In this document: in pieces, positions 7,603-36,345 of the stretch
Layout: every line of letters starts with the position of its first letter
How positions within the stretch are numbered: the first letter of the stretch is position 1
The notes under the pieces: model-generated
Told to the model about the DNA's origin: nothing
Database searches by the model: none
The model's input: the letters and a program-made list of their open reading frames with translations, nothing else
NCBI GenBank assembly: GCA_003155655.1
Contig: PMDS01000096.1
Span: 1 to 39,429, forward strand
DNA length: 39,429 nucleotides
Origin: Melioribacter sp.
GTDB lineage: Bacteria; Bacteroidota; Ignavibacteria; Ignavibacteriales; Melioribacteraceae
Direction: 5' to 3'
Made by a program: the position numbers and the translations under genes

Positions 7603-8249
7603 GCGTTTTATTTTGTGGCGGTAAGGGAAAGCGTTTAGGTGAAATAACAAAGTATATCTCCAAATCATTTATACCAATATATAACAAACCTGCTTTTAAA
7701 TACGGACTTAACCTGCTCCAAAATTCAAAAATAGTTGATGAAATAATTATTTTAACAAATAAAGACAATGATCAAATAATTAAGAAAGAAGGATATAAAA
7801 CAATTATTCAAAATGACAGGTATGTGTCTGACATGTTCTCTGGCTGGGAATTTATTAAAAAAAAAACTGGGACTAAAAAAAATGGGGTTTTAGTTCCTAG
7901 TGATAATGTAAGTGACATAAAGGTTGATGAATTAATTAAAAAATTTATTAGTGAATATGTTGAATTAGTTTTTTCGATAACAAAAATTGATGATGTGCCT
8001 AAATTATCACAAATGGGAGTTTATGATTTGGATATGAAGAAATTTTCTTATAAACCAAAAAAACCGGCTTCAAAATATGGGGTTATAGCACCCTACATTA
8101 TTTCAAATAAACTTAATTGCGTTGATGGCGAGAATGTCCTCAATCATAAAAATTCAAGTTTTCTTAAATGTTCAAGCTTTTGGTTTGATATTGGAGATAT
8201 TGAAAGTTTGTTAAATGCGTCAATTTATATTTCTAAAAGGAAAATTTAA
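7587..8249 (+). CDS. Sugar-1-phosphate nucleotidyltransferase
   Basis: The 220-residue NTP-transferase would activate the sugar 1-phosphate made by the preceding kinase as an NDP-sugar. The signature loop is CGGKGKRLGEITKYISK (residues 10-26), binding the nucleoside triphosphate. The usual proline-lysine-proline after it is replaced by YISKSFIPI, with K26 the likely catalytic lysine. VPSDN (103-107) carries the metal-binding aspartate, and SSFWFDIGDIESLLNA near the end is the typical DxGxxxxY-like tail. At 220 residues it is slightly short, with no left-handed beta-helix extension. It starts inside the kinase gene, which implies translational coupling. The nucleotide (GDP, UDP or dTDP) cannot be told. 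Confidence 0.87.
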   Translation: MEKFLGVLFCGGKGKRLGEITKYISKSFIPIYNKPAFKYGLNLLQNSKIVDEIIILTNKDNDQIIKKEGYKTIIQNDRYVSDMFSGWEFIKKKTGTKKNGVLVPSDNVSDIKVDELIKKFISEYVELVFSITKIDDVPKLSQMGVYDLDMKKFSYKPKKPASKYGVIAPYIISNKLNCVDGENVLNHKNSSFLKCSSFWFDIGDIESLLNASIYISKRKI

Positions 8250-20573: not shown

Positions 20574-21548
20574 ATGAAAAAAATTTTAGTAACAGGTGCC
20601 GCTGGATTTATCGGTTCACATTTGACAGAATATTTAGTTCAAAATGGTCTTAACGTAAAGGCATTCGTCCATTATAATTCCCAAAATGATTGGAGATGGA
20701 TTGATAATTCAGTTGTTAAAGACGAGATCGAAATAATTTCCGGTGATATTAGAGATTTTGATTCTGTATTCAATTCGATGAAGGAGTGCTATGTAGTTTT
20801 TCATCTTGCTGCTTTGATTGGTATACCTTATTCATATATTTCACCTAAAGCTTATATTGATACTAATATTATCGGTACTTATAATATTTTGCAATCTGCC
20901 AGAGAACAATCTTTAGAACAAATTTTAATTACGTCAACTAGTGAAACTTATGGTACTGCACAGTATGTACCAATTGATGAGAAACATCCTATGGTTGGGC
21001 AATCACCCTATTCTGCTTCCAAAATATCAGCGGACCAGCTTGCATGTAGTTATTATCGTTCATTTAATTTACCTGTAAAAATTGTTAGACCATTTAATAC
21101 TTATGGACCAAGACAATCTGCCAGAGCGATTATTCCAACAATAATATCGCAGATTCTAAAAGGAAAAATGGAGTTAAAACTTGGTAATGTTAAACCAACT
21201 AGAGATTTAACTTTTGTAAAAGATACTTGCATGGGTTTTTATGAAATATACAAATCAGATAAACTTTTTGGTGAGATAACAAATATTGGGATGAAAAACG
21301 AGATATCTATTGGAGAATTAGTAGAAAAAATCGCTTCCATACTTAATAAAAAAATTAATATTATAACCGATTGGGAAAGAGTGCGACCTGAAAAAAGTGA
21401 AGTTGACAGATTGCTTTGTGAAAACAAAAAATTAATTGAAAGCACAAATTGGGAACCAGTATACAATCTTCATAAAGGATTAATTGAGACCATTAGCTGG
21501 ATGGAAAAGAATATTGATCTATATAAAACTAACTTGTATAATCTCTAA
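20574..21548 (+). CDS. legB: NAD-dependent 4,6-dehydratase, LegB type
   Basis: The 324-residue extended SDR would dehydrate a nucleotide-linked GlcNAc to its 4-keto-6-deoxy form. It matches LegB-type sequences closely: ILVTGAAGFIGSHLTEYLVQ (residues 4-23), VKAFVHYNSQNDWRWID, VFHLAALIGIPYSYISP, TSTSETYGTAQYVPIDEKHP, the catalytic Y146/K150 (SPYSASK), IVRPFNTYGPRQSARAIIPT and GNVKPTRDLTFVKDT. In legionaminic acid synthesis LegB acts on GDP-GlcNAc; related enzymes use UDP-GlcNAc. The neighbours fit: a nucleotidyltransferase upstream and a LegC-type aminotransferase downstream. No NeuB-like synthase or NeuC-like epimerase occurs in the window, so the end product here need not be a nonulosonic acid. 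Confidence 0.9.
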   Translation: MKKILVTGAAGFIGSHLTEYLVQNGLNVKAFVHYNSQNDWRWIDNSVVKDEIEIISGDIRDFDSVFNSMKECYVVFHLAALIGIPYSYISPKAYIDTNIIGTYNILQSAREQSLEQILITSTSETYGTAQYVPIDEKHPMVGQSPYSASKISADQLACSYYRSFNLPVKIVRPFNTYGPRQSARAIIPTIISQILKGKMELKLGNVKPTRDLTFVKDTCMGFYEIYKSDKLFGEITNIGMKNEISIGELVEKIASILNKKINIITDWERVRPEKSEVDRLLCENKKLIESTNWEPVYNLHKGLIETISWMEKNIDLYKTNLYNL

Positions 21549-21655: not shown

Positions 21656-22816
21656 GTGAATAAATATCTGAAAGTAACGAAATTTATTAAATCTCTTTAT
21701 CCTGGTCAAAATCCTGTCCCACTTCACGCACCAGTGTTTTTAGGAAAGGAAAAAGAATACCTGATGGAGTGTATTGATTCTACTTTTGTCTCCTATGTTG
21801 GTAAATATGTAACCAAATTTGAAGAAATGACTGCTGAATTTACCGGAGCCAAATATGCTGTTGCTATTGTAAACGGCACAGCAGCTTTGCATATAGCATT
21901 AAGAATTGCTGGTGTTCAGTATGGTGATGAAGTAATAACTCAACCTCTTACATTTGTAGCAACGGCAAATGCAATCGTTCATTGCGGAGCAAAACCAATT
22001 TTCGTTGATGTTGATTTGGACACAATGGGAATGTCTCCGGAAAAACTAAATGACTGGATTTCAAAAAACGTAGAATATAATCATTCAACCAAGCGTACCA
22101 TTAACAAAACTACTGGATGCCATATCTCTGCTATTGTCCCAATGCATACTTTCGGATTTCCGTGCAGAATAGATGATATAGTAAAAATTGGGAGTAAGTT
22201 TAACATACCAGTTATTGAAGATTCCGCTGAATCAATTGGTTCTTTTTATAAAGGAAAACATACAGGGACTTTCGGCTTAGCAGGAGTTTTAAGTTATAAT
22301 GGGAATAAAACTATCACAACAGGTGGTGGTGGTATGATAATAACAGATGATGAAAGTTTTGCTAGAAACGTAAAACATTTGACAACTACAGCTAAAATTC
22401 CTCATAGATGGGAATTCGTTCACGATGAAGTTGCATATAATTATAGACTAACAAATTTAAGTGCAGCTGTGGGTGTAGCTCAAATGGAATATATAGATAA
22501 AATTTTACTTAACAAGAGAAATACAGCTGAAAGGTATAAGCAATTTTTTGAATCATCAGATATTGAATTTTTAAGGGAACCAAGGAATTCAATTTCTAAC
22601 TACTGGCTGAATTCAATAAAATTGAAAAATAGAGAAGCAAGAGATAATTTTTTAGAATATGTAAATAATAATGGTGTAATGGCCAGACCAATTTGGCGAT
22701 TAATGAATAAACTAGAAATGTACACACATTGTCAGTGTAGTGATATTGAAAATTCAGAATTATTAGAAAATTGTGTCATTAGTATTCCAAGTAGTGTTAT
22801 AAGCAATTTATCATGA
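21656..22816 (+). CDS. legC: LegC-family sugar aminotransferase
   Basis: The 386-residue DegT/DnrJ/EryC1/StrS enzyme is unmistakably LegC-like: DSTFVSYVGKYVTKFEEM, NGTAALHIAL, QPLTFVATANAI, VPMHTFGFPCRIDDI, D189 in IEDSAESIG, GVLSYNGNKTITTGGGGMI with Schiff-base lysine K218, and HLTTTAKIPHRWEFVHDE. It would transaminate the 4-keto product of the preceding dehydratase to a 4-amino-4,6-dideoxy sugar. The start is GTG 21656; no ATG fits the frame and no good ribosome-binding site is visible. A 107-bp AT-rich gap separates it from legB. It is coupled to the next gene by ATGA. Confidence 0.93.
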   Translation: MNKYLKVTKFIKSLYPGQNPVPLHAPVFLGKEKEYLMECIDSTFVSYVGKYVTKFEEMTAEFTGAKYAVAIVNGTAALHIALRIAGVQYGDEVITQPLTFVATANAIVHCGAKPIFVDVDLDTMGMSPEKLNDWISKNVEYNHSTKRTINKTTGCHISAIVPMHTFGFPCRIDDIVKIGSKFNIPVIEDSAESIGSFYKGKHTGTFGLAGVLSYNGNKTITTGGGGMIITDDESFARNVKHLTTTAKIPHRWEFVHDEVAYNYRLTNLSAAVGVAQMEYIDKILLNKRNTAERYKQFFESSDIEFLREPRNSISNYWLNSIKLKNREARDNFLEYVNNNGVMARPIWRLMNKLEMYTHCQCSDIENSELLENCVISIPSSVISNLS

Positions 22817-23852: not shown

Positions 23853-24401
23853 ATGAATACTTTATTTATTGGTACTCGAGTTGAAGCTTTAAAAGCTTTT
23901 AATATTCATTGCATTAGCCATTTTCAAGAGAGAACTGATATAATGTCTTTTCATGATACAAGACTTAAATCTTATTTGGAAATAACAAAATATCCAGTTT
24001 CTCATTTTATTTTAATCGATAAAGGCAAAACAAATGCATTACATGAACTTGATAACATTCTGACAAAGAAACATTATGAAATATTACTTTCTGTAGGCTT
24101 CCCATATATCATACCTCAAGAAATATTTCGAAATCATTCACGTACCTTGTTTCTGAACCTTCATCCACATATCTTACCTAAATGGAAAGGTTTTAATTCA
24201 ATTAAAGAAAGCTTTGCCAAAGGAGAAAAATCTTTTGGGGCTAGCCTACATTATATGATTCCTGAAATGGATAGTGGAAAAATAATATATCAACTTGAAT
24301 ACAATATGGAAAATCAACCCCTTGATTTCATTTATGAATCAGTGTTTTCCATAATAGAACCAATTGTATTGTTACGGGGACTGGGGAAAAAAATCTTTTA
24401 A
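23853..24401 (+). CDS. Formyltransferase-family protein (possible sugar N-formyltransferase)
   Basis: The 182-residue protein has the formyl_transferase core (PF00551): LNLHPHILPKWKGFNSIKES with N102 and H104, GASLHYMIPEMDSGKIIYQ with D140. These are the Asn, His and Asp that transfer formyl from N10-formyltetrahydrofolate in GART and the sugar N-formyltransferases. It follows LegB/LegC-type genes that would make a 4-amino sugar, so N-formylation of that amine is the best guess. It is shorter than usual sugar N-formyltransferases, which often carry an extra C-terminal domain, and the N-terminal nucleotide-fold part is compact. It starts 2 bp after the preceding stop. Confidence 0.8.
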   Translation: MNTLFIGTRVEALKAFNIHCISHFQERTDIMSFHDTRLKSYLEITKYPVSHFILIDKGKTNALHELDNILTKKHYEILLSVGFPYIIPQEIFRNHSRTLFLNLHPHILPKWKGFNSIKESFAKGEKSFGASLHYMIPEMDSGKIIYQLEYNMENQPLDFIYESVFSIIEPIVLLRGLGKKIF

Positions 24402-24432
24402 TTGATTTTAAATCTCTTTTAAATATTTTATC

Positions 24433-25491
24433 ATGATTTTTACCTTAAATGAGGGAAATTTAATTAAACGATATTTGAAGAAAATATCTTCTAGTCAAAT
24501 AGATATTTACTTTACTCCAGAATATTATTATTTATATGAGAACTATAATGATGGCAAAGCATTATTTTTTGTATTTGAAAAAAATGATGAAATTGCGCTA
24601 TATCCCTTTTTATTAAATCCAATCAATGAATTAGGATATAACTTAGACAATCTTTATTCTGATATTCAAGGAGCTTATGGCTATAACGGTGTAATATCGT
24701 CTACTGAAGATAAAGCATTCATTGAAAAGTTTTATAATGAATTTAATTTGTATTGTACTAGAAATAATATAATTTCTGAATTTACAAGATTTCATCCAAT
24801 ATTAAATAATCACGTATTCTCTAAGGATTATTTAGAAGTAATTTATGATAGAGAAACTGTTATATTAGATCTAACAAAATCATTTAATGAAATTTGGAAA
24901 AACGAATATAGCGGAACTAACAGAAACATGATCAGAAAAGCAAAAGATAATGAGGTAATAATTGAGTTTAATGAATCTTTAAATGGCTTATTAAAATTTG
25001 CTGATCTATATCGCGAAACGATGGATGATTTGAATTCTGACAATTATTATAAATTTGATAATAGTTATTTTGAGAATATTTTCCATCTCTTAAAAAGTAA
25101 TTACGATTTGGTAATGGCATATAAAAACGATGAATTAATAGCAGCTTCATTGTTTTTGTACTATGGTAACTTTTACCACTATCATTTATCAGCACGCAAT
25201 CGTGAATATCAAAAGTATGCTGCGAATAATCTAATACTTGATAAAGCGATAAAAAAAGCTCAAGAAAGAGGTTGTAAAAAATTCCATTTTGGTGGTGGTT
25301 TTGATAAAATTCCTCAAAATAGTTTGCTCAAGTTTAAGAGTAATTTTTCAAGTCAAAGAGGAAAATTTTATATTGGTAAAAAGATCCATAATAAAGAAGT
25401 ATATAACAAAGTAATAAAACAATGGGCAGAAAAAAATCCAAATTATGAAGGGAACAATAATCAAATATTACTTAGGTATAGAAATCATTAA
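24433..25491 (+). CDS. FemAB/GNAT-like acyl- or aminoacyltransferase
   Basis: The 352-residue protein shows the double-GNAT layout of the FemAB/FemX and CelD-like (Acetyltransf_6) families. The first domain runs to about residue 150. The bridging region is ILDLTKSFNEIWKNEYSGTN followed by RNMIRKAKDNEV, equivalent to the 'W...LRxxxRRxIRKA' element of FemX proteins. The second domain has LVMAYKNDELIAASLFLYYG, YHYHLSARN and KFHFGGGFD. FemAB members add amino acids from aminoacyl-tRNA to peptidoglycan; cluster-linked relatives are thought to acylate sugar amines. Beside the LegC and formyltransferase genes it may decorate the same amino sugar. The substrate is not known. GT2 starts 6 bp downstream. 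Confidence 0.75.
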   Translation: MIFTLNEGNLIKRYLKKISSSQIDIYFTPEYYYLYENYNDGKALFFVFEKNDEIALYPFLLNPINELGYNLDNLYSDIQGAYGYNGVISSTEDKAFIEKFYNEFNLYCTRNNIISEFTRFHPILNNHVFSKDYLEVIYDRETVILDLTKSFNEIWKNEYSGTNRNMIRKAKDNEVIIEFNESLNGLLKFADLYRETMDDLNSDNYYKFDNSYFENIFHLLKSNYDLVMAYKNDELIAASLFLYYGNFYHYHLSARNREYQKYAANNLILDKAIKKAQERGCKKFHFGGGFDKIPQNSLLKFKSNFSSQRGKFYIGKKIHNKEVYNKVIKQWAEKNPNYEGNNNQILLRYRNH

Positions 25492-25497
25492 AGTGTT

Positions 25498-26217
25498 ATG
25501 AAGATTTTAGTTGCTGTTATTGCATTTAATGAAGAGAAAAACATAGATCTCGTAATTAATGATCTAATCGTTCACAATAAGTATAATTATGATATAGTTG
25601 TGATTGATAATGGCTCCAATGATAATACACGGAATATTGCTGAAGAAAAAGGCATTACAGTATTAAGCCACCCAATTAATTCCGGTCATTCAGGGGGAAC
25701 TGCCATTACTTATTTTAATTATGCATTTTATAACAATTATGATTTATTAATTCAATTTGATGGTGACGGACAACATGTCGCTGCTGAAATCGGCAAAATT
25801 GTCGAAGTTTTTTCTAAGAGTAATTGTGATTATATAATTGGTTCGAGGTTTTTGGATAAAAATGGGTTCCAATCTTCATTCATTAGAAGAATAGGTATAA
25901 ATATGTTTTCTGTTATTTCTTCATATATAATTAAGAATCGAGTAACTGATGCAACCTCTGGTTTCAGAGGGTATAGCCGTCTTATAATGGAAGTCTTTTC
26001 AAAAAAATTTCAGCATGAGATAAATGATCCAATGCAAGTGCTCATGATATCTTATTATGCTGGTGCAAAAATTTCTGAGGTACCTGTCAAAATGACGGTA
26101 AGATTACATGGGAAATCAGAATTTACTTTTTTACCATCTATAAGTTTTGTATTGAACGGACTAATGAATTTATTTGGGATTTTACTCCAAAAAAAAACAA
26201 TAAAGAAATATTTTTAA
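25498..26217 (+). CDS. Family 2 glycosyltransferase (polyprenyl-phosphate sugar synthase-like)
   Basis: The 239-residue GT-A enzyme resembles DPM1/GtrB-type synthases that load one sugar onto undecaprenyl phosphate. Landmarks are VAVIAFNEEKNID, VVIDNGSNDNT, IQFDGDGQH with the metal-binding DGDG (residues 88-91), YIIGSRF, and VTDATSGFRGYSR, the conserved acceptor-loop motif. The C-terminal tail is weakly hydrophobic but lacks the two clear membrane helices of GtrB proteins. Immediately downstream are a DUF2304 membrane protein, a small EmrE-like transporter and a GT-C-like protein. This is the usual company of enzymes feeding periplasmic glycosylation. Confidence 0.9.
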   Translation: MKILVAVIAFNEEKNIDLVINDLIVHNKYNYDIVVIDNGSNDNTRNIAEEKGITVLSHPINSGHSGGTAITYFNYAFYNNYDLLIQFDGDGQHVAAEIGKIVEVFSKSNCDYIIGSRFLDKNGFQSSFIRRIGINMFSVISSYIIKNRVTDATSGFRGYSRLIMEVFSKKFQHEINDPMQVLMISYYAGAKISEVPVKMTVRLHGKSEFTFLPSISFVLNGLMNLFGILLQKKTIKKYF

Positions 26218-26218
26218 T

Positions 26219-26572
26219 ATGGGCATCGAAATTAAATTAATTACCCTTTGTTTAGGTCTTATTTTTCTATTTAATATTTTAAGATCCTTAAGAAAAAATT
26301 TATTTAAACCTTCATATGCATTACTCTGGATACTTGTTTCTTCTTTTTTAATTTCTATTCCTATCCTAGAACCTGTTTATAAATTTATTGCCACTGATAT
26401 AATAGGAATATCCGATGCACGACATATTATTTATATTGTCCTTATTGGATTTTTGATTGTTTTTAATTTTAATATAACATCTAAAATCAGTCTTCTGACT
26501 GACCAAGTACAAAAATTAATTAGTATCGTTGCAATTCTTGAAAATGAAATAAAAAAGAGAAATGAAGAGTAA
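26219..26572 (+). CDS. DUF2304 family membrane protein
   Basis: The 117-residue protein has three hydrophobic segments (about residues 5-18, 33-50 and 68-85) and an acidic/basic C-terminal tail with a short helical stretch, ISLLTDQVQKLISIVAILEN. The pattern 'SLRKNLFKPSYALLWILVS' followed by a hydrophobic loop ending GISDARHIIYIVLIGF matches DUF2304, which very often lies directly after a DPM1-like GT2 gene. Its function is not established; a role in anchoring or assisting the lipid-phosphate glycosyltransferase is inference. It starts 1 bp after the GT2 stop and overlaps the next gene by 11 bp. Confidence 0.8.
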   Translation: MGIEIKLITLCLGLIFLFNILRSLRKNLFKPSYALLWILVSSFLISIPILEPVYKFIATDIIGISDARHIIYIVLIGFLIVFNFNITSKISLLTDQVQKLISIVAILENEIKKRNEE

Positions 26573-27050
26573 ATATTATAAAAACCTCAACTTTATAATA
26601 AAGGGTATATTAGGCTATATTGCATATATCACCATATTCCCTTTATGGTTAAGCCCACTATTGCACAGGTGGCGTGGAGTAAAAATAAAAAATATTCACA
26701 ACATCTATATTGCCCCAAATGTTTTGATAGATTCTATTTTCCCTGAAATTGTTACTATTGAAGATGACGTTTATTTAACACGTGGAGTAAAAATAATCTC
26801 TCATTTTAATCCAACTGATGCAATAAAAAAAATATTAAATAAAGAAACGCTAAAAGGTAAAGTTGTTTTAAAGCAAGGAGCATTTATTGGTGTAAACGCA
26901 ATTATTCTTCCAAATGTTGTAATAGGAAAGTGTGCTGTGGTTGGAGCAGGTTCTGTAGTTACAAAGGATGTACCAGATTATTCAATTGTAGGTGGTAATC
27001 CTGCTATTATTATTGGTGATATAAGAACTCATAATTGGAAAAACTCGTGA
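26562..27050 (+). CDS. Hexapeptide-repeat acyltransferase (WbbJ-like)
   Basis: The 162-residue protein has a left-handed beta-helix signature from about residue 45: IYIAPNVLIDS, VTIEDDVYLTRGVKI, VVLKQGAFIGVNAIILPNVV and IGKCAVVGAGSVVTKDVPDY, ending IVGGNPAIIIG. This is the standard O-acetyltransferase pattern of the maa/WbbJ group. H82 in IISHFNPT may be the catalytic histidine. An N-terminal hydrophobic stretch (IIKGILGYIAYITIFPLWLS) suggests membrane association. It would acetylate a sugar hydroxyl, probably on the side-branch sugar, as it is embedded between the GT2/DUF2304 pair and the flippase-like gene. Confidence 0.85.
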   Translation: MKSKYYKNLNFIIKGILGYIAYITIFPLWLSPLLHRWRGVKIKNIHNIYIAPNVLIDSIFPEIVTIEDDVYLTRGVKIISHFNPTDAIKKILNKETLKGKVVLKQGAFIGVNAIILPNVVIGKCAVVGAGSVVTKDVPDYSIVGGNPAIIIGDIRTHNWKNS

Positions 27051-27403
27051 TTAAGTTAATATTCTTAATGACAATTCAATGTATATTTTTAGTTTCAGCT
27101 CAAGTTTTTTTAAAATTAGGATTAACTAAATTTCAATTTGAGGGAATAAATATCAATCTAATAAAATCATTAATAAAAAATCCACTTATTTGGATATGCT
27201 TTCTTTGTATGGGATTATCAGGGATAGTTTGGTTTTACGTAATAAAAAATTATAGAATAAGTCTGGCTTATCCACTAGTTAGTATTAGCTATATATTCAT
27301 GCTGATTGCAGCTATATACGTATTTCATGAAACAGTGCCATTCATTAGGTGGATTGGGGTAATTATTATAATAGTTGGTATAATATTAGTTTGTCAAAAA
27401 TGA
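27047..27403 (+). CDS. Small EmrE/ArnE-like membrane transporter
   Basis: The protein has four predicted hydrophobic helices, the size and layout of the SMR/EamA half-transporters such as EmrE and the undecaprenyl-phosphate-aminoarabinose flippase subunits ArnE/ArnF. SAQVFLKLGL in helix 1, IVWFYVIKNYRISLAYPLVS and WIGVIIIIVGIIL fit this family. It would move a lipid-linked sugar across the inner membrane. I choose GTG 27047 (118 residues), which gives a four-base GTGA overlap with the preceding stop; a TTG at 27035 would add four residues. Only one copy is present, so it would act as a homodimer. Confidence 0.82.
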   Translation: MIKLIFLMTIQCIFLVSAQVFLKLGLTKFQFEGININLIKSLIKNPLIWICFLCMGLSGIVWFYVIKNYRISLAYPLVSISYIFMLIAAIYVFHETVPFIRWIGVIIIIVGIILVCQK

Positions 27404-27444: not shown

Positions 27445-28689
27445 ATGAAGTCACTAATATTAAAATTTGAGAAATATTTTTGTAATGGTAATCTAGTTTT
27501 AAGAGTTTTTTTATTCCATTTATTAATAATGTTATCAATTGTGATGGTGCTAATTTTTTATTTCAATGTTAATACAAATTTTTTTTTGGAAGATGACGGA
27601 TATTATAATTTAGGAAAACTTTTTTTTCATGGGAAAATTGGTTTAACAAATCAATATATCGGGCCTGGTTTACCATTAATCATGTCTGTAATAAATATTT
27701 TCCCGGAGAAAATTCATTTTTTAGTTAGGATTATTTTCACTGAATTATTTACCCTAGGGAATATTTATTTAGTTTACAAAATATTTAATACTCTAATTAA
27801 TAAAAGAGAAATATTCTGGGGCTTGATTACAGGATTATTCAACCCATTATATCTAAGGTTTATACTTAAGCCAGTTATTGAGATATATGTTGCGTTCTTT
27901 TTAGGCTTAGTGATTTATTCTCTGATCTTCTACGAAAGAAAAAGAATAATAATGTTTTTACTATTATTACTAGTACTGTTTGTCGGGACCTATTTTAAAC
28001 CAATTTTTTTATTTATTCCTTTTGGAATATTTTTATTTGCTCTAACAACAAAATATAAAAATTATTTGTTGCTGTCAGGAATCTTATTATTGTTTATTAT
28101 GATAACTTTTTATTCATTTATAAACTTTACAAAAATAAAAGAACCAGGTGAAGGTTTGTATACAACTCCTTATGGCACTAATGACTTTATAGCATCTGTA
28201 TTTTTTATTCAAGCAATTCACCAAACTAATAATATTAGTTTAGGATCTAAATTAATAGAGGTAGCGCCCTTGAATTCTAACATTTACCTTGCTAGAAAAT
28301 ATACTATTGATTGGAAGGATAATTATCATAAGCTTGGAGGCAGTGAAAATCTAATTATAATGAATAGTGAATTTATATTACAAAAATTTGGTTCGGTAAT
28401 TATTGCTAAACTTTTAGCTCCTGTTTTTTTTATTTCTTTGTCTGATACATTCCAAGAAACAATTATTCATTTGTTCATAAATATTTTTATTCTATTAATT
28501 GCTTACAGATCGATCAAAAAACTTTATCGCTACAATAAAAAACAAATATTATTAATTGTGATAATTCTTTTCAGTTATGCATCAATTTTTTTTATCACTT
28601 TTAGCTATGTACGGTATTCGTTGCCCTTTATATTTTACATGTCAATTTTTACCGGACACTCAATATGTGGCTGGTTGAAAATTCAATAG
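27445..28689 (+). CDS. GT-C-like membrane glycosyltransferase
   Basis: The 414-residue protein has roughly 9-11 hydrophobic segments. The first extracytoplasmic loop contains FFLEDDGYYNLG with D50/D51, the acidic pair expected for GT-C enzymes (PMT/ArnT type) that use lipid-phosphate sugars. A soluble stretch (about residues 230-310, containing LYTTPYGTND) lies outside the membrane bundle. The overall sequence is poorly conserved, and I cannot assign a Pfam family with certainty. Its position after GT2, DUF2304 and a small flippase supports a role in transferring one sugar from undecaprenyl phosphate to the glycan in the periplasm. Unlike typical GtrC-type enzymes it carries an acyltransferase gene in its operon. 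Confidence 0.72.
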   Translation: MKSLILKFEKYFCNGNLVLRVFLFHLLIMLSIVMVLIFYFNVNTNFFLEDDGYYNLGKLFFHGKIGLTNQYIGPGLPLIMSVINIFPEKIHFLVRIIFTELFTLGNIYLVYKIFNTLINKREIFWGLITGLFNPLYLRFILKPVIEIYVAFFLGLVIYSLIFYERKRIIMFLLLLLVLFVGTYFKPIFLFIPFGIFLFALTTKYKNYLLLSGILLLFIMITFYSFINFTKIKEPGEGLYTTPYGTNDFIASVFFIQAIHQTNNISLGSKLIEVAPLNSNIYLARKYTIDWKDNYHKLGGSENLIIMNSEFILQKFGSVIIAKLLAPVFFISLSDTFQETIIHLFINIFILLIAYRSIKKLYRYNKKQILLIVIILFSYASIFFITFSYVRYSLPFIFYMSIFTGHSICGWLKIQ

Positions 28690-29026
28690 TAATATAAATA
28701 ATTTGTCAAATGCTTTCCCTTATTTTATTTGTAAATTTTACAATCTGTTATTATGTTTCTTGAAATATATTGAAATGAAAATTACTACTGATAAAGTTAT
28801 TATCTAATTATTACAGTAATGGTTTTCAAAATGATCTGTTTTACTACATTCCTAAATTATTCATATATTGTAAAACATATCGGTTCGAAGGAATAAAAGG
28901 CGGAATGCAATTAAGTTCAGTTTAAATAATGAATATTATAGTTATTCTGCTTTTCAAGAGTTATTTTAATAAATGATTATCATCTAAAAATAGGATATTT
29001 ATTCCTTCTAAATATATTATTCCTCA
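28690..29026. other. 337-bp gap without a recognisable gene
   Basis: The stretch is very A+T rich. It contains a 15-bp palindrome (TTGTAAA-T-TTTACAA, 28729-28743) without a following T-run, and short open frames of fewer than 35 codons that resemble nothing I know. It separates the side-branch glycosylation genes from the ATP-grasp operon, so it is the natural place for a terminator and a promoter. No clear example of either is visible. Confidence 0.5.
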
Positions 29027-30223
29027 TTGTTAAGTAAAAATAGACATTCAAAATTGAATATCGCGATTGTTCTTAATCTTGATTCGAACGGATTAGGAGT
29101 AATGCGAAGTCTTGGAAGATTAGGAATCGAAGTTCATGGGATCGACTATAAGAAAAACGCTGTTGGGTTAAGCTCAAAGTACTGCAAAAAAAAATATATT
29201 TTTTCGAGTCCAATACTAAAAAGAAAAGAGTGTTTAACTGAATTAATCGAACTTGGCAAATCTTTTAACTTGAAGCCGGTACTTATACCTTCAGCAGATT
29301 ATTATGTCACTCTAATTTCGGAATATCAGAAAGAGCTTTCAAAATATTACCTGTTCAACATTCCTGAGCCTGAAGTACTTGCAAGCATTGTTGATAAAAG
29401 AAAGCAATATAAATGTGCCGAGGAACTAAGGATATTAACCGCTAAAACATTTTACCCAAAATCTTTTGATGAAATTAGAAATAGTGATTTTAAATTCCCG
29501 GTTTTTATTAAAGGAGTAAGTGGTTATAAGTGGGCTTCTGTTTTTAATAACAAAGGCTTTGTTACTAATAATCAAGATGAGCTGGAGAAGTATTACATGA
29601 GTGCTGATAATGAAAATGTAGAAACAATAATCCAGGAAATTATAACGGGACCAAATAAGAATCATTTTAAAGTCTGCGCTTATTACAATAAAAAAAGAGA
29701 ACTGCTTGCAATATTTTCAACTCAGAAAACAAGGCAATTCCCGGTGGATTTCGGAGTAGGGAGTTACATGATCTCAGGTCATTACCCGGAATTAATTAAA
29801 GAAGCAAGAAATTTTTTTGAAGGAATAAAATATACAGGCATCGGGTCAATTGAATTTAAAAAAGACGATATGGACGGTAAGTATAAACTCATAGAACTTA
29901 ATCCAAGATTATGGCAGCAGAATATTCAAGCGACATACGCAGGGATTAATTTTGCATATATAAATTATCTTGACTGTATTGGGGAAGATGTAAAACCAAT
30001 ATTGGATTTTAAAGACGATATTAGATGGCTGGATGCAATCCAGGATTTTCAATCATTTCTTGGTAACAATAAAAAAGGGGATGTTAAGTTCTATGAATGG
30101 ATTAAGTCTGTTTTTAAGACAGATTGTTGCGCATATTTTGCATTAGATGATGTTAAACCTGGATTGGAAAATTCGCATTATTTTACTAAATATCTGAAAT
30201 TACCACTTAAAATATTGAGATGA
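29027..30223 (+). CDS. ATP-grasp ligase-family protein
   Basis: The 398-residue protein is an ATP-grasp enzyme of the carbamoyl-phosphate-synthase-like group, which activates a carboxylate as acyl phosphate and joins it to an amine or thiol. The N-terminal NIAIVLNLDSNGLGVMRSLG and the SAD-YYVT segment form the pre-ATP-grasp domain. K162 in FIKGVSG and the EFKKDD-DGKYKLIELNPRL stretch (E276, E290, N292, R294) supply ATP and magnesium contacts. The start is TTG 29027; no ribosome-binding site is visible, and a start slightly downstream at the TTG of LNIAIV is possible. It is coupled by ATGA to the next gene. The substrate is unknown. Confidence 0.85.
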   Translation: MLSKNRHSKLNIAIVLNLDSNGLGVMRSLGRLGIEVHGIDYKKNAVGLSSKYCKKKYIFSSPILKRKECLTELIELGKSFNLKPVLIPSADYYVTLISEYQKELSKYYLFNIPEPEVLASIVDKRKQYKCAEELRILTAKTFYPKSFDEIRNSDFKFPVFIKGVSGYKWASVFNNKGFVTNNQDELEKYYMSADNENVETIIQEIITGPNKNHFKVCAYYNKKRELLAIFSTQKTRQFPVDFGVGSYMISGHYPELIKEARNFFEGIKYTGIGSIEFKKDDMDGKYKLIELNPRLWQQNIQATYAGINFAYINYLDCIGEDVKPILDFKDDIRWLDAIQDFQSFLGNNKKGDVKFYEWIKSVFKTDCCAYFALDDVKPGLENSHYFTKYLKLPLKILR

Positions 30224-31248
30224 ATTACATTAATAAAACAGCAAAAATATTATTATCGAATTCTTTGAATCGTTTTTCGGCTTGGAATGATGACAGGAAA
30301 ATAAAAGTATTGGTAAAAACATGGGATGGATTTGACAACGCTTTATGGTCGAATATAACCGGAGAAAAAATAGCAAAATTAGAAAAATATGCTCAATTCA
30401 TTTTTACTTTCAATAAATTGGATTTCATAAAAAATATTAAAAATGCGGACATAGTATTTTCCGATTCAATCGAAACTAGTGTAAATAACAAAAAAATTAA
30501 ATTCATCCAGGTTCCATTATCCGGTGTTGATTATATCGAAAAATATAAGTCATTAAAAGGAAAGATCGTTACTTCAAGAGGCTTATCTTCGGATTTAATC
30601 TCAGAATATGTGCTGACATTTATATTACTCCAAAGCAAGAGAATTAATATAATTGAAGATAACATGAAGAATCAAAAATGGGAACAATCCGCATTGCTGA
30701 AAGAAATGAAAAAAAATAGTGATGTAAAAATATGTGTTTATGGATTTGGGAGTGTTGGGAAGAAAATTGTTGAAAATCTATCTCAATTAGGTTTTATTAT
30801 TTACATAATAGATGAGAACTACAACAATAAAATTAAAAATGATACAAAAATTCATTTTATTAAAAATTTATCTGAAATAAATGGAAATATTGATTTTATT
30901 GTTTTAGCTGTTCCATTAACTAAAAAAACAAAAAAAATGGTTGACTCTAAATTCATTGAAAATATTGGTGAAAATTGTTGCCTTATAAACATTTCAAGAG
31001 GAGAAATTATTAACGAAAAAGATTTGATATATGCGTTAAAAAATAATTTGTTAAAAAGTGCAGTCCTGGATGTAGTCAGCAATGAACCTTTACTTCCAAG
31101 TTCAGAATTATGGAATTGCCCAAATCTTATTATTACACCACACGTTGCTGGTAATATTAACTTAATCAAAGAACAAATACTGGAAAGATTTATTAACAAT
31201 GTCTGGGCTGTAATTAAAGGGTCTTCTTTAATTGATGGTAGTATTTGA
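30220..31248 (+). CDS. D-isomer-specific 2-hydroxyacid dehydrogenase
   Basis: The 342-residue NAD-dependent dehydrogenase interconverts a 2-keto acid and a D-2-hydroxy acid. The Rossmann loop is VYGFGSVGKKIVENL (G175, G177, G180), followed by an acidic residue in IYIIDE that favours NAD over NADP. The catalytic set is complete: R260 in NISRGE, E289 in SNEPL and H308 in TPHVAG. The N-terminal half is divergent, with IQVPLSGVDYIEKY as the conserved substrate-loop segment. Its tight coupling to an ATP-grasp ligase upstream and an asparagine-synthetase-like protein downstream suggests that its hydroxy-acid product is attached to something, probably the glycan or a sugar precursor. Confidence 0.9.
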   Translation: MNYINKTAKILLSNSLNRFSAWNDDRKIKVLVKTWDGFDNALWSNITGEKIAKLEKYAQFIFTFNKLDFIKNIKNADIVFSDSIETSVNNKKIKFIQVPLSGVDYIEKYKSLKGKIVTSRGLSSDLISEYVLTFILLQSKRINIIEDNMKNQKWEQSALLKEMKKNSDVKICVYGFGSVGKKIVENLSQLGFIIYIIDENYNNKIKNDTKIHFIKNLSEINGNIDFIVLAVPLTKKTKKMVDSKFIENIGENCCLINISRGEIINEKDLIYALKNNLLKSAVLDVVSNEPLLPSSELWNCPNLIITPHVAGNINLIKEQILERFINNVWAVIKGSSLIDGSI

Positions 31249-33080
31249 TGTTTGATTTATTACTTGCCTTCAGTAAAAATGAAATAAATACTTCTATTAG
31301 AGAAAAAATATCTAATTCTTTTAGCAAATATGATCTCTATAAAAATATAGAATATCTATGTAAACGGTTCAGCAGCGATTCTTTTTGTTTTACATATTAT
31401 TCTAGAGAAAATGATAATTCGAATCTTTCAGAAGATAATAGTTATAAGATACTAGTTGTTGGGGAACCATTCATATCAGATTATGGCGCTGAAAAGTATA
31501 ATTTAAAAAAGTGGTTGCATAACGCTTCAGATCTGTTAAAAATATACCAAAAAAGTGGCGATGATTTCCCTGAATGTCTAAAGGGGAACTATTCTTTAAT
31601 TATACTCGAAAATAAGTTTAATAGATTAAAAGTAATAAACAGCAAATATGGTATTTCTCCTATTTACTATGCTCTTCAAAATGATATATTATATTTATCA
31701 ACTTCATTAATAATACTACGGGAACTTGATAAAAGTTTAGAAGAAATTGATGAAACGGCATTATTAGAGAGAGAAATATTTAATTATCCGCTTGGCAGAA
31801 AGACCTTACTAAAAAATGTATTTTCTCTACTTCCAACAGAGATTGTTACGTATGATAAATCCGGAATAAACCGAAAAACTTATTGGAGTCTGAAAGAACT
31901 GTACTCATCAAAATTATTAGATGAAAAAGAAGCAGTTGAAATTGGAGAAAAGATATTTAAGGATAGTGTTAGAATTAGAACAGAGGATAAAGAAAAGATA
32001 TGCGCGTCATTAACGGGAGGTTTTGACGGGAGGACAAATTTATCTGTACTGAATAAATCAAAAGACGATCTTTTGCTGTATTCATTTGGCATAAAAGGCA
32101 GCCTGAATATTGAGATACCGCTTAAAATATCTGAAGAACTTGGTTATAAATATGAGCCAATATATTTAGAAAAAGAATATGAGGAAGTTTACAATCAATT
32201 CGCTGAAGAAGCTGTAATACAGTCGGATTGTTTAAGAACAATAGAAAGCGCTAATTACCCATTTGCATTTAAACAGCTGTCAAAATTTTCTGATGTAGTG
32301 ATAACAGGGATATTCGGCAGCGAGTTACTAAGGACATTCCAGAATGTAGGTTTGATGGTTAAAAAGGAGTTTGTCGATTTAAACAATTCAAATAATTCCG
32401 AAAATACCTGGAATAACATTAAAAACAATTTACTAACGAATTCTTATTTAGATAAACAGTTAATTGAAAACAATTTTGAGGAAGTGAAGAACCATTTTAA
32501 TGAAGTAATATGGTCGAATATAAAAGAGTTAACTACAAATCAAAGATTTTATATTTACCTAATATCAGCCGGATTAAAAAATTATTTCGGCGGCGAAGTG
32601 CATTCTGAAAGGATTTATGCTACAAACAGGTTCCCATATTTAGATGAAGATTTTGTAAAGTTCATATTTCAATCTCCGTTTGCGGGAATATACTCAACAG
32701 CACTTAATCCAACAGCAAACCAAAGATTCAGATCTCAATATTTTTACGCTAAGATAATAGAGATGAACAAACCTGAATTATTGAAATACCAGACTGATCA
32801 TGGGTTCCCCGCGGATTATGTGTTATCAAAATTCCCTTTATTAAAAATTTCTTTGCCTTATTTTATTAATAGGAGAAAGAAAAAGAGAACCAGATACGTT
32901 GAGTTTAAACCTGTTGATTGGGGAGAAAAATATTTTAATAATACTGATTTAAATTTGTTCCTAAGATCGTCATATCTTAATGAAAAATATAAGGGTGATT
33001 ATATCACTGGCCGTTGGAAGAATAATTATTCTGCTTTTTTTAAACATGCCTCTTTTAATATCTGGATGAATATTAGCTGA
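31248..33080 (+). CDS. Asparagine-synthetase-like amidotransferase without the glutaminase cysteine
   Basis: The protein (610 residues from ATG 31248; a TTG three bases earlier adds one) has an N-terminal Ntn-like domain with CLKGNYSLIILENKFNRLKV and SKYGISPIYYALQN, matching GATase_7. However, it begins MFDLLLAF with no catalytic Cys2, so it cannot release ammonia from glutamine in the usual way. The C-terminal synthetase domain has the PP-loop LTGGFDGR (255-262), where the usual SGGxDS serine is glycine. It would adenylate a carboxylate, like beta-lactam synthetase or asparagine synthetase, and couple it to an amine or free ammonia. The start overlaps the previous stop (TGATG). Confidence 0.85.
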   Translation: MFDLLLAFSKNEINTSIREKISNSFSKYDLYKNIEYLCKRFSSDSFCFTYYSRENDNSNLSEDNSYKILVVGEPFISDYGAEKYNLKKWLHNASDLLKIYQKSGDDFPECLKGNYSLIILENKFNRLKVINSKYGISPIYYALQNDILYLSTSLIILRELDKSLEEIDETALLEREIFNYPLGRKTLLKNVFSLLPTEIVTYDKSGINRKTYWSLKELYSSKLLDEKEAVEIGEKIFKDSVRIRTEDKEKICASLTGGFDGRTNLSVLNKSKDDLLLYSFGIKGSLNIEIPLKISEELGYKYEPIYLEKEYEEVYNQFAEEAVIQSDCLRTIESANYPFAFKQLSKFSDVVITGIFGSELLRTFQNVGLMVKKEFVDLNNSNNSENTWNNIKNNLLTNSYLDKQLIENNFEEVKNHFNEVIWSNIKELTTNQRFYIYLISAGLKNYFGGEVHSERIYATNRFPYLDEDFVKFIFQSPFAGIYSTALNPTANQRFRSQYFYAKIIEMNKPELLKYQTDHGFPADYVLSKFPLLKISLPYFINRRKKKRTRYVEFKPVDWGEKYFNNTDLNLFLRSSYLNEKYKGDYITGRWKNNYSAFFKHASFNIWMNIS

Positions 33081-33088
33081 TTTGAGAT

Positions 33089-34219
33089 TTGTTGAAACGA
33101 AAAATTCTTATACTTACAAATTATCCCTCTGATCTGTCATCGTTTTCCGGTGGAGTTGAAACAGCAACTGCTTCATTGTTGGAAGGATTGAAACAATATT
33201 TTACTGAATTCGAATTTTCGATTGCAGCTATAGATCTTAAGGCAGAAGAAGATAGAAGAATTGTTAAAGACGGTTACACATTTTATTTTTTTGCGCCATT
33301 TGGACGTCATTTCAGGCCACATTCTTTATGGAGTGGGTTAAAAATATTCAAAATAGTAAAAACCTTAAACCCGGACATAATTCATGTAAATGGGAATGTT
33401 ATTCTAGGATTTTGGACATCATTCTGCAAACAAAGAAAAATATACACAATTCACGGTATACCAAAGAAGGAGAGAAAAGTATGGTCAGGCATAGGTTATT
33501 GGGGTATACTGCTCGAAAGTTTACTGCAGAATTATGTTTTTTTAAGGTTTAAGCACATAATCACTCTTACTAAAGAAAATGCTATTCACTTTACAAAACA
33601 TCAAATTATTTATAATGTGCCTAATTCTGTTAGAAGTAAATTTCTTCTTGATACTAACAATAAAGAACGAAACAGAATATTGTTTGTAGGAGGGTTAACA
33701 AGGATGAAAGGAGTAGATATGCTCCTGGAAGCTTATAATGACCTGGATGACAAGGAAGAGGTTAAACTGACTTTAGTAGGTGAAATGAAAGAAATAAATC
33801 TAAAAAATAAAATTGATGAGTATAAATTTAAGTATGGAAATAAAATTGAAGTTATTGAAAATGCCGGTATCGAAAAATTGACTGAATTATTTTATTCATC
33901 AAAATTATTCATACTGCTTTCCCGTCAGGAAAATATGCCAATTGTATTATTGGAAGCAATGGCTTGCGGTGTACCGGTAATTGCTTCTGATGTAGGCGCC
34001 ATACCGGAAATGATTGAGGATGGAGTTGACGGGTATATATTTAAAAATGGTGATGTTGCCTCACTGAAAAACATTCTTAAAAATATTTTATATAATCAGA
34101 ACAAATTGGAAAATATTGGCGAAGCTGCCAGAAGGAAAGTTCTTAAGTATTATACTCCTGATGTTATTTCGGCAAAAACTGTAGGAGTGTATAAAACTTT
34201 GCTGAATGAGAAAAATTGA
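33089..34219 (+). CDS. Family 4 glycosyltransferase
   Basis: The 376-residue GT-B enzyme starts at TTG 33089 or the next codon, TTG 33092, giving KRKILILTNYPSDLSSFSGG with the N-terminal glycine-rich loop and GVETAT. IYTIHGIPKKER lies in the acceptor domain. The donor domain reads ILFVGGLTRMKGVDMLLEAY, LVGEMKEI, and SRQENMPIVLLEAMACGVP, with a complete EX7E motif, then VIASDVGAIPEMI. It is a fully canonical retaining GT4 and most likely adds an internal sugar of the repeat unit. It begins 8 bp after the asparagine-synthetase-like gene. Confidence 0.92.
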   Translation: MLKRKILILTNYPSDLSSFSGGVETATASLLEGLKQYFTEFEFSIAAIDLKAEEDRRIVKDGYTFYFFAPFGRHFRPHSLWSGLKIFKIVKTLNPDIIHVNGNVILGFWTSFCKQRKIYTIHGIPKKERKVWSGIGYWGILLESLLQNYVFLRFKHIITLTKENAIHFTKHQIIYNVPNSVRSKFLLDTNNKERNRILFVGGLTRMKGVDMLLEAYNDLDDKEEVKLTLVGEMKEINLKNKIDEYKFKYGNKIEVIENAGIEKLTELFYSSKLFILLSRQENMPIVLLEAMACGVPVIASDVGAIPEMIEDGVDGYIFKNGDVASLKNILKNILYNQNKLENIGEAARRKVLKYYTPDVISAKTVGVYKTLLNEKN

Positions 34220-34220
34220 A

Positions 34221-35363
34221 ATGAAAACAGTATTACATCTTGAAAGAAAATTTACTTCAAATACAGAAACTTTTATAATAAATCAGGTAAATCTGATTGC
34301 AAAATACAATGTAATTGTTGTTACTATAAGGTCGCTTAATAATTTTGAATGCAATAAAAAAATTATTACGCCAAATAAAAGAAGCGCAATTTCAAATACA
34401 GCTAAAGTACTCTCTAAAAGTACATGTGAATCACTTTTTAACCAATTAAAGGATTATAAAATTGATTTAATTCATGTTCATTATCTTGTTGACGCATTGT
34501 ATTTCAAAAAACTTGTAGAAAAATTCAATGTTCCTAAAATTGTTTCAAGCTATGGTTATGATGTAACAAGCTTTCCGAATATATTTTTTGGTTTTGGACG
34601 ACTATTGTTGAAAACTGTATTTAGACACTATGATTATTTCTTTGCCATGAGCCAGGACATGAAAACCGACTTGGTAAAATTAGGATGTAAAAATGAAAAA
34701 ATAATGGTTCATTATTACGGTACAGAAACAAGCAAATTCAACAATACCAGTAGAGATTATAAACGTGGAAATAAAATAAAAATACTAAGTGTCGGAACTT
34801 TAGAAGAAAAAAAAGCGCAGCTGCTTGTTATCGAGGCTTTGTACCTACTTGAGAAAAAACATCCAAATGTAAATTATGAATACCATATTATTGGCGGTGG
34901 CCCTGATGAAAATAAAATTATGGAAAAATGTATTAAATACAATATGACGAACAAAGTATTTATTCATGGTTATATTCATCATCATTCCAAGGAACTTAAA
35001 AAATTCTATGATGATTGTAATATTTTTATACTTCCGAGCATAACTACAAAAAGTGGTGAAAAGGAGGGAATACCGGGAACAATAGTTGAAGCCATGAGCA
35101 ATGGTTTGCCTGTTATAAGTACATATCATGCGGGAATTCCTTCTATTATTGAAAATGTAGTACACGGATTACTTGTAAAAGAAAGGGATATACAAGCATT
35201 GGAAGAAGCAATTTACAGTCTTATTTCAAATATTGAGTTGTGTAGAAAAATTGGGCAAAACGCTCAAACCAGAGCAATAAATGAATTGGATCTAAAAGCT
35301 AAAACAATAGAACTCGAAAATATTTACAAAAATATTATAGATAATGATCAAAAAAATTTATAA
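34221..35363 (+). CDS. Family 4 glycosyltransferase
   Basis: I take ATG 34221, one base after the preceding stop, giving MKTVLHLERKFTSNTETFI. It has GAGA in a better position for ribosome binding than ATG 34206, which would add five residues. The roughly 380-residue GT-B protein has FIINQVNLIAKYNVIVVTIR and a HVHYLVDALYF acceptor-domain segment. ILSVGTLEEKKAQLLVIEAL, HIIGGGPDEN and KEGIPGTIVEAMSNGLPVIS carry an intact EX7E pattern (E-G-I-P-G-T-I-V-E). The SFPN and ETFI features resemble colanic-acid WcaL/AmsK-like transferases. It overlaps the deacetylase gene by 20 bp, so the two are translationally coupled. Confidence 0.92.
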   Translation: MKTVLHLERKFTSNTETFIINQVNLIAKYNVIVVTIRSLNNFECNKKIITPNKRSAISNTAKVLSKSTCESLFNQLKDYKIDLIHVHYLVDALYFKKLVEKFNVPKIVSSYGYDVTSFPNIFFGFGRLLLKTVFRHYDYFFAMSQDMKTDLVKLGCKNEKIMVHYYGTETSKFNNTSRDYKRGNKIKILSVGTLEEKKAQLLVIEALYLLEKKHPNVNYEYHIIGGGPDENKIMEKCIKYNMTNKVFIHGYIHHHSKELKKFYDDCNIFILPSITTKSGEKEGIPGTIVEAMSNGLPVISTYHAGIPSIIENVVHGLLVKERDIQALEEAIYSLISNIELCRKIGQNAQTRAINELDLKAKTIELENIYKNIIDNDQKNL

Positions 35364-36345
35364 TCAAATTCGATCTTCACTTCCGCAAAAATATCAAATT
35401 GAATTATCAAAATTTGTTTTTAGAATTACCGATAAACCCTTTTTTGTAAATGACGAGAATTATGACCTGAAAAAGGGGATTGTTGTAGTATCTGCGGATT
35501 TTGAATTAGCGTGGGCCTGGAGGTATTCAAAAAAGAAAATAAATATTTCGGAAATTGCTGAAAGAGAAAGAAATAATTTCCATATCATTATAAATAGATT
35601 AAATGAATTGGATATACCTATTACATGGGCAACAGTTGGCCATTTATTTCTTGATTCATGCAAAAGAGAAAACGGAAAAGCCCACTGGGATATGTATAGA
35701 CCGAATTACTTCGAAAATGAATATTGGAAATATAAGTATGGCGATTGGTTTGACATTGATCCGTGTGGGAATTATAAGTCTGATCCCGGATTTTATGCTC
35801 CAGATTTAATTGAGATAATTTTAAATTCTAAGACAAACCATGAAATTGCATGCCATAGTTTTTCCCATTGCGATTTCTCTGAAAGGAACAGCTATTCCAA
35901 ATTGATTGATGCAGAATTGAGTGAATGCAGAAAATCAATGGATAAATTTGGAATTAGACCTGTTTCATTTGTTTTTCCTGGCAACCTATATGGAAGTTTT
36001 GATCATCTTAAAAAAGCAGGGTTCAAAATTATAAGATATAAAGCAAATGATTCAAAAGAATTAGGATACCCTGAAATATTAAAGAATGGCTTGATGGCAA
36101 TTCATGATTCTATTGCGCTTGATGTTTATGAAGATGGATGGGATAATAATTATTTACTATGGAAGTATAAAAAATATATTGATAAAGCTATTGATAAAAA
36201 AGCAATTTGCCATTTTTGGTTTCATCCTTCCTTGCAATACAAACAACTTGAAGAGTATTTTCTTCCTATCCTGAATTATATTCATTCTCAAAGAGAAAAT
36301 GGGAAATTAGAAGTATTAACAATGGAACAGTTAATAACATTATAG
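35344..36345 (+). CDS. Polysaccharide deacetylase (NodB homology domain)
   Basis: The 333-residue protein has the NodB-type catalytic motifs: VVSADFELAWAW with the metal- and base-providing aspartate D52, HEIACHSFSHCDF with the metal-binding H171 and H175, and RPVSFVFPGN as motif 3. HFWFHPSLQ near the C-terminus provides the late catalytic histidine. It would remove N-acetyl (or O-acetyl) groups from the glycan. No signal peptide is evident, so it may act on a lipid-linked intermediate in the cytoplasm, as seen in related cluster-borne deacetylases. An unusual insertion between residues 105 and 150 (WDMYRPNYFENEYWKY) is rich in aromatic residues. It starts inside the preceding glycosyltransferase gene. 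Confidence 0.9.
   Translation: MIKKIYNQIRSSLPQKYQIELSKFVFRITDKPFFVNDENYDLKKGIVVVSADFELAWAWRYSKKKINISEIAERERNNFHIIINRLNELDIPITWATVGHLFLDSCKRENGKAHWDMYRPNYFENEYWKYKYGDWFDIDPCGNYKSDPGFYAPDLIEIILNSKTNHEIACHSFSHCDFSERNSYSKLIDAELSECRKSMDKFGIRPVSFVFPGNLYGSFDHLKKAGFKIIRYKANDSKELGYPEILKNGLMAIHDSIALDVYEDGWDNNYLLWKYKKYIDKAIDKKAICHFWFHPSLQYKQLEEYFLPILNYIHSQRENGKLEVLTMEQLITL

Follow-up and report, generated by a model that had tools for sequence, protein, structure and literature searches.

We analyzed a stretch of Melioribacter sp. DNA (hereafter, the window) that spans positions 1 to 39,429 of contig C96 (PMDS01000096.1) in a genome of 4.6 Mb. Within a cluster of nucleotide-sugar, glycosyltransferase, Wzx-like, and Wzy-like genes, the window encodes an ATP-grasp ligase, a D-2-hydroxyacid dehydrogenase (HADH), and a relative of the asparagine synthetase AsnB that lacks the N-terminal cysteine. 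These three genes, referred to below as the trio, and their junctions are as follows.

29027..30223, + strand: ATP-grasp ligase, 398 amino acids
30220..31248, + strand: HADH of a cassette-specific clade, 342 amino acids
31248..33080, + strand: Cys-less AsnB-like ligase with the PP-loop LTGGFDGR, 610 amino acids
30220..30223, + strand: ATGA overlap of the ATP-grasp stop and the HADH start, 4 bases (junction DNA)
31246..31250, + strand: TGATG overlap of the HADH stop and the AsnB-like start, 1 base (junction DNA)

An initial annotation of this DNA had described three open reading frames (ORFs) joined by these overlaps and set in a glycan cluster, and both the junction DNA and the genes around the trio confirm this description. 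For the AsnB-like gene the ORF finder picks TTG 31245, although translation more probably begins at the ATG at 31248. For the ATP-grasp gene, TTG 29027 is the earliest start that the reading frame allows, and that assignment is tentative.

Co-occurrence of the trio in other genomes was a test set beforehand. We found the same ATP-grasp/HADH/AsnB-like order in four further loci (L032, L033, L034, and L035, from Ignavibacteria and Bacteroidia metagenome-assembled genomes, or MAGs), with protein identities of 28–39% and with a gene for a NodB-like deacetylase standing first in each. The HADH and AsnB-like genes overlap in all four loci and the ATP-grasp and HADH genes in three, L033 having a 2-base gap at the latter junction. 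This shared order excludes a chance neighbourhood.

Searching genome contigs with a four-member alignment and two peptide patterns, one of them the PP-loop, returned 50 loci. We surveyed 51 distinct AsnB-like loci, a set that includes the weaker relatives L010 and L011 and omits L007, L008, and L009 (sequences identical to L029, L056, and L057) as well as L047, where no AsnB-like ORF passed the ORF filter. Within five ORFs, 43 of these loci have an ATP-grasp gene (counting the window’s type or a second, partly RimK-like type), 36 have a NodB-like gene, and 32 have both. Where the locus extends for three or more ORFs in each direction (29 loci), the corresponding counts are 27, 27, and 25, and the NodB-like gene occupies position –1 in 27 of 45 loci. 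The initial annotation had treated the trio as the natural unit. The recurring unit is wider – deacetylase, Cys-less AsnB-like ligase, and ATP-grasp enzyme – and the trio is one version of it. A reductase is found within five ORFs in a minority of the 51 loci (HADH in four, short-chain dehydrogenase [SDR] in three). In L026 and L071 an SDR occupies the HADH position, and in L029 a related SDR lies ahead of the ATP-grasp gene. In L046 a GNAT protein is encoded between the NodB-like and ATP-grasp genes, and at L038:6190-7362 an ATPase-looking gene sits between the NodB-like and AsnB-like genes, as if inserted into the cassette.

The window’s own deacetylase gene lies three genes downstream of the trio.

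35344..36345, + strand: NodB-like (CE4) deacetylase, with 35–43% identical homologues upstream in trio and related loci

From its presence there, we consider the window a rearranged version of the cassette. The window protein scores 19.9 bits against PF01522, under the cut-off of 23.1, while its L033 homologue scores above it at 28.2 bits. Residues D52, H171, and H175 are invariant in 14 of 14 sequences. A PDB profile search with the NodB alignment gave no match at E 0.01.

The AsnB-like protein is barely above the Pfam cut-offs for GATase_7 and Asn_synthase. Its structure model (pLDDT 91.3) has two domains – Ntn-type and PP-loop synthetase – and matches TsnB9, AsnB, human asparagine synthetase, and the beta-lactam and carbapenam synthetases with Z scores of 22–25 over 428–513 residues. 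Beta-lactam and carbapenam synthetases are themselves AsnB-type ligases without the N-terminal cysteine. The window protein differs from these two and from TsnB9 in its low identity (12–13%), its TGGFDGR PP-loop, and its glycan setting.

The initial annotation had proposed that this enzyme does not use glutamine itself, and the residues bear this out. No cysteine is present at residue 2 of the window protein or of 54 related ORFs, several of them truncated by the end of their contig. When 37 members were aligned (A2; the window plus 36 of those 54 ORFs), two cysteines fell in the Cys1 column, both of them misplaced residues from further in. Relative to Escherichia coli AsnB, the window protein has Asn74 changed to Val and Asp98 to Asn, with Arg49, Gly75, and Glu76 kept; among the 37 members Asn74 is replaced in at least 24, and Asp98 is replaced or gapped in at least 33. 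All 12 canonical AsnBs that we aligned, by comparison, keep the N-terminal cysteine, every glutamine-site residue compared, and Ser239. We therefore rejected a glutamine-dependent asparagine synthetase because the catalytic cysteine is missing and Asn74 and Asp98 are changed. Lacking a glutaminase site, the enzyme would take its amine from elsewhere.

On the synthetase side, Asp238 is kept in 37 members and Glu352 in 36. The motif of PP-loop ATP pyrophosphatases is SGGxDS, of which the window’s TGGFDGR retains the Gly-Gly and the Asp and alters both serines. Variants include TGGFDSR (L042 and L073), TGGGDTR (L010), and TSGFDGR (L056), and conservation of TGGFDGR partly reflects selection, because the PP-loop was one of the search patterns. 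The family is rare: of 395 phylum genomes, one has a match at E ≤ 1e-20 and two have the motif, one of these two being a chance match in unrelated genes. Weaker matches (E ≤ 0.001), found in 59 of 146 relatives, are probably mostly ordinary AsnB relatives.

The ATP-grasp protein is far under the cut-offs of PRK12767-type NCBIfam models (best E 5e-14), and its Pfam matches are weak. Its structure model (pLDDT 88.7) has the ATP-grasp superfamily fold, with 2pn1, a CPSase-like protein, as the best match (Z 29.2, root-mean-square deviation 2.6 over 290 residues). PurK, an L-amino-acid ligase (3vot), and PylC (4ffr and 4ffl) follow at Z 26–27, the latter two at about 26, with biotin carboxylase and PurT slightly behind. 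L-amino-acid ligase and PylC both join a carboxylate to an amine, and the window protein shares 12–14% identity with them. Because the scores of PurK, PurT, and biotin carboxylase are much like those of the peptide-type ligases, the fold cannot select the reaction. Residues E276, E290, N292, and R294, which are expected to have a metal/ATP role, are invariant in nine of nine homologues (set A3, nine of 12 cluster members, which omits the duplicate L007, the second L035 copy, and L040).

The HADH has a strong NAD-binding domain match (PF02826, E 2.2e-42, 144.8 bits against a cut-off of 25.1) and carries GxGxxG together with Arg260, Glu289, and His308, presumably the catalytic Arg, Glu, and His. 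Enzymes of this family are D-specific. Whether the protein is simply the genome’s phosphoglycerate dehydrogenase was the second test set beforehand. The HADHs of the five trio loci form a single clade (support 94/94; 95% of bootstrap trees), whereas E. coli SerA groups, at 100/100, with a different protein encoded in the genome. Of the genome’s four nearest HADH paralogues, one lies near SerA and the other three pair with the E. coli proteins SerA, PdxB, and GhrB at 98–100. E. coli GhrA is placed beside the trio clade, but its branch is very long and the window’s is long as well, which makes the clade’s outer position unsure. At E ≤ 1e-45, a profile built from the five HADHs matched nothing in the other 145 of the 146 relatives searched.

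Two identities for the HADH were rejected. An ordinary SerA is excluded by its score against the NCBIfam phosphoglycerate dehydrogenase equivalog (107 bits, cut-off 454) and by the other genome protein that takes the SerA grouping. VanH is excluded by a score of 72.2 bits against the NCBIfam VanH model, where the cut-off is 540 – a score below that of the phosphoglycerate dehydrogenase model. In the VanH system an HADH stands beside an ATP-grasp ligase, the D-Ala-D-Lac ligase. The likeness to VanH drawn in the initial annotation therefore survives at the level of families and gene neighbours and fails at the level of the model score; the trio also differs in involving an AsnB-like enzyme. A VanX-type protein had no match among the 35 window ORFs scanned.

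Exchange at the HADH position is seen beside closely related ligases. The closest relative of the window, L026, has an ATP-grasp protein 60–61% and an AsnB-like protein 55–57% identical to the window’s. In the ATP-grasp tree, the window (HADH) is sister to L026 (SDR) at 100/100, and L033 (HADH) is sister to L071 (SDR) at 100/98. The AsnB-like tree, built from the window and 22 loci, again pairs the window with L026 (98/94) and places L071, which is a partial sequence, as sister to L030 instead of L033. Well-supported branches force at least three changes of HADH label in the ATP-grasp tree and at least two in the AsnB-like tree; gains and losses of HADH look alike in both. Unlike reductases standing in this place beside related ligases are the strongest functional pointer in the dataset: the place probably supplies the ligases with their acid. 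The initial annotation had envisaged a D-hydroxy acid pathway, but a D-hydroxy acid cannot be the product of every version, because elsewhere the place holds an SDR or nothing. The earlier interpretation is thus supported in part: co-occurrence and the non-SerA identity of the dehydrogenase stand, and the trio turns out to be only one version of a larger cassette.

The genes around the trio include further candidates for glycan assembly, of which LegB and LegC score above their model cut-offs.

20574..21548, + strand: LegB-type 4,6-dehydratase (479.8 bits, cut-off 475)
21656..22816, + strand: LegC-type aminotransferase (524.4 bits, cut-off 420)
33089..34219, + strand: first GT4 glycosyltransferase
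34206..35363, + strand: second GT4 glycosyltransferase, with 37–38% identical homologues directly after the AsnB-like gene in L030, L033, and L035
36386..38263, + strand: canonical AsnB-type amidotransferase with N-terminal Cys, with 31–32% identical homologues after the GT4 gene in L030, L033, and L035

The LegB-type and LegC-type genes are possible acceptor-sugar genes. In L030, L033, and L035 the homologues of the second GT4 and the canonical AsnB come next in the locus, and L032 has close homologues of the window’s nucleotidyltransferase (64%) and LegB (61%).

With moderate confidence, we interpret the trio as one version of a surface-glycan N-acylation cassette that occurs mostly in Bacteroidota-type genomes. 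In ATP-grasp ligases the carboxylate is activated as an acyl phosphate, and in AsnB-type enzymes as an acyl adenylate. From this ligase chemistry and from known hydroxy-acyl glycan chemistry, we infer every reaction, the acid, the acceptor, and the amide bond, and so propose deacetylation followed by building of an N-acyl group. The NodB-like deacetylase would remove an N-acetyl group, freeing the amine of an amino sugar, and the HADH would make a D-2-hydroxy acid by reducing a 2-keto acid; other cassette versions would employ an SDR in its place, or no reductase, with acids already present. The ATP-grasp enzyme (via an acyl phosphate) and the Cys-less AsnB-like enzyme (via an acyl adenylate) would join carboxylates to amines, probably successively – for example, the hydroxy acid to an amino acid, and then that product to the sugar amine. 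The outcome would be a one- or two-part N-acyl group, which in the window version would include a D-2-hydroxy acid. LegB and LegC would provide a 4-amino sugar, but the deacetylase suggests an N-acetylated sugar, and either may be the acceptor.

Published chemistry offers parallels. Linked ATP-grasp ligases often act successively, and O-antigen is among their products (PMC4431377). Amino sugars of the Flexibacter maritimus O-antigen carry 2-hydroxyglutaryl and 3-hydroxybutyryl amides, malyl amides are likewise known from glycans, and an N-(3-hydroxybutyryl)-alanyl group occurs elsewhere (PMC3210612).

Several observations weigh against this interpretation. The Bacteroidota hydroxy-acyl pathway for which genes have been proposed uses acyl carrier protein and a PglD-type acyltransferase (PMC6519341), and the window’s hexapeptide and FemAB-type acyltransferases could carry out such an acylation. 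Neither an HADH nor an SDR lies within five ORFs at most of the 51 loci, L036 and L072 have a NodB-like gene and no ATP-grasp gene within that distance, and in the window itself the NodB-like gene is not adjacent to the trio. At the level of the proteins, the ATP-grasp model resembles PurK, PurT, and biotin carboxylase about as closely as it does peptide-type ligases; the AsnB PP-loop residue Ser239 is Gly in 34 of the 37 AsnB-like members, so adenylation is not assured; and the L035 HADH has Ser in place of the catalytic Arg. The F. maritimus 2-hydroxyglutaryl group is (S), to be set against the D-specificity noted above for the HADH family.

A bolder form of the N-acylation proposal, which we hold to be a long shot, is that the cassette represents an undescribed route to acylated Bacteroidota surface amino sugars – among them, in certain lineages, the sugar that links cargo in type IX secretion – in which the exchangeable HADH/SDR place resets the acid and the remodelled TGGFDGR PP-loop serves ligation, not amidation.

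We also considered a specific role in type IX secretion, which we judge unlikely. Here the cassette would make the linking sugar through which PorU, the type IX sortase, attaches cargo to lipopolysaccharide: an amine would be freed, and the ligases, replacing VimA, would add an amino acid whose own amine takes the cargo C-terminus. In Porphyromonas gingivalis, the CE4-type VimE together with VimA is proposed to exchange N-acetyl for serine (PMC7468200), whereas in Prevotella intermedia, which lacks VimA and VimE, the route to an N-alanyl deoxyhexose is called unknown (PMC11969387). This parallel and the unexplained P. intermedia linker led us to look for C25 peptidases, which are present in 47 of 48 genomes with an AsnB-like gene (12 of 12 in one set and 35 of 36 in a second) and extend to MAGs named WOR-3, TA06, and Cloacimonetes. 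The second set gave 36 of 37 before removal of a chance match in an unrelated region (G418/L076), and the count leaves out the genomes of L047, L049, and L050. However, the AsnB-like gene is rare and C25 peptidases are widespread, being present in 274 of 395 phylum genomes and in 155 of 170 genera, which gives a Fisher p of 2e-6 by genome and 0.2 by genus. Being no different from background by genus, the association was rejected as proof of a type IX role, and shared ancestry can explain it. The only genome without C25, that of L068, nonetheless carries the AsnB-like gene; the C25 family also covers proteases other than PorU; and a hydroxy-acyl group would leave no amine available for linkage. 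As a separate observation, the genomes of L027, L028, and L069 (in records named WOR-3, TA06, and Cloacimonetes) and of L075 each have 11–15 C25 matches.

It is improbable that the AsnB-like enzyme instead uses free ammonia to form a primary amide such as a uronamide, while the ATP-grasp enzyme and HADH contribute other steps in building that glycan. Uronamide formation is known for AsnB-type proteins encoded in glycan clusters, as described for WbpS (PMC7468200), but the canonical AsnB encoded in the same cluster means that a glutamine-using copy is already at hand, and the Cys-less family retains its ATP-grasp and NodB neighbours.

Quite doubtful, in turn, is the idea that the HADH is a metabolic passenger – recycling a keto acid, for example – and that only the deacetylase and ligases cooperate. 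The scarcity of HADH and SDR genes across the 51 loci and the loss of the catalytic Arg in L035 are what one would expect of a passenger, but the genes keep a tight, conserved order with overlaps, the trio loci have an HADH clade of their own, and an SDR takes the same place in L026 and L071. That the trio genes make a small pseudopeptide metabolite separate from the surface glycan is very improbable: the osmolyte N-acetylglutaminylglutamine amide is made by an AsnB-type enzyme working with an ATP-grasp enzyme, and the AsnB-like protein matches the model of that AsnB, TIGR03104, at 48.9 bits (far under the cut-off of 570), but the surroundings are glycosyltransferase, deacetylase, Wzx-/Wzy-like, and nucleotide-sugar genes, and glycosyltransferase genes are frequent neighbours at other loci.

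Returning to surface-glycan N-acylation, the cassette can be set beside two described pathways. Like it, the Wbp/Vim pathway of P. gingivalis and Tannerella forsythia has a CE4-type deacetylase proposed to free an amine for aminoacylation, and an AsnB-type gene, wbpS (PMC7468200). Unlike it, aminoacylation there is ascribed to VimA, of the acetyltransferase/FemAB type, the AsnB protein amidates, and the paper names no ATP-grasp enzyme (PMC7468200). The window has CE4-like and FemAB-like genes, and our comparison with the Wbp/Vim pathway rests on its published description. FemAB-type genes lie downstream of the AsnB-like gene in 14 of the 51 loci, within three ORFs in each (L044, L048–L050, L053–L055, L058–L062, L066, and L067); these loci are mostly from Saprospiraceae and relatives and recall the FemAB-type VimA. 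The R-group cassettes of Flavobacterium psychrophilum (Qui2NAc4NR) are similar in that swappable genes, a ketoacyl reductase included, are predicted to set the O-antigen hydroxy-acyl group, but the proposed route runs via acyl carrier protein and a PglD-type acyltransferase, with no ATP-dependent ligases (PMC6519341).

We did not recognize this combination as described in the open-licence literature searched, though Iyer et al. 2009 (amidoligases) may hold related predictions. The finding is real and more general than first noted. N-acyl groups help set surface-glycan serotype (PMC6519341), and in type IX secretion they form the cargo protein anchor. For some such sugars, among them the P. intermedia N-alanyl deoxyhexose (PMC11969387), the way in which amino-acyl and hydroxy-acyl groups are put on has yet to be explained. 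A compact, recurring set of two unlike ATP-dependent ligases, a deacetylase, and a variable reductase is a concrete, testable candidate with a search signature.

A promoter scan of 28400–33400 found 26 sites against 30.5 in shuffles, and because the sites were not above shuffles we claim no promoter for the 337-base gap preceding the trio. Between LegC and a formyltransferase-like gene, positions 22813–23850 encode a 345-amino-acid protein with a 33% identical ORF in L073; it matched nothing in Pfam at E 0.001, and its PDB search gave no useful match. After LegB/LegC, positions 23853–27403 hold formyltransferase-like, FemAB-like, polyprenyl-phosphate-sugar-synthase-like, hexapeptide acetyltransferase, and ArnE/ArnF-like genes, a set that suggests a lipid-phosphate-linked sugar route. 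An HddA-like heptose kinase gene and a nucleotidyltransferase gene at 6592–8249 suggest a nucleotide-heptose route within the same cluster. Close to the window start, at 1006–2352, lies a full-length IS5-family transposase that scores above its model cut-off.

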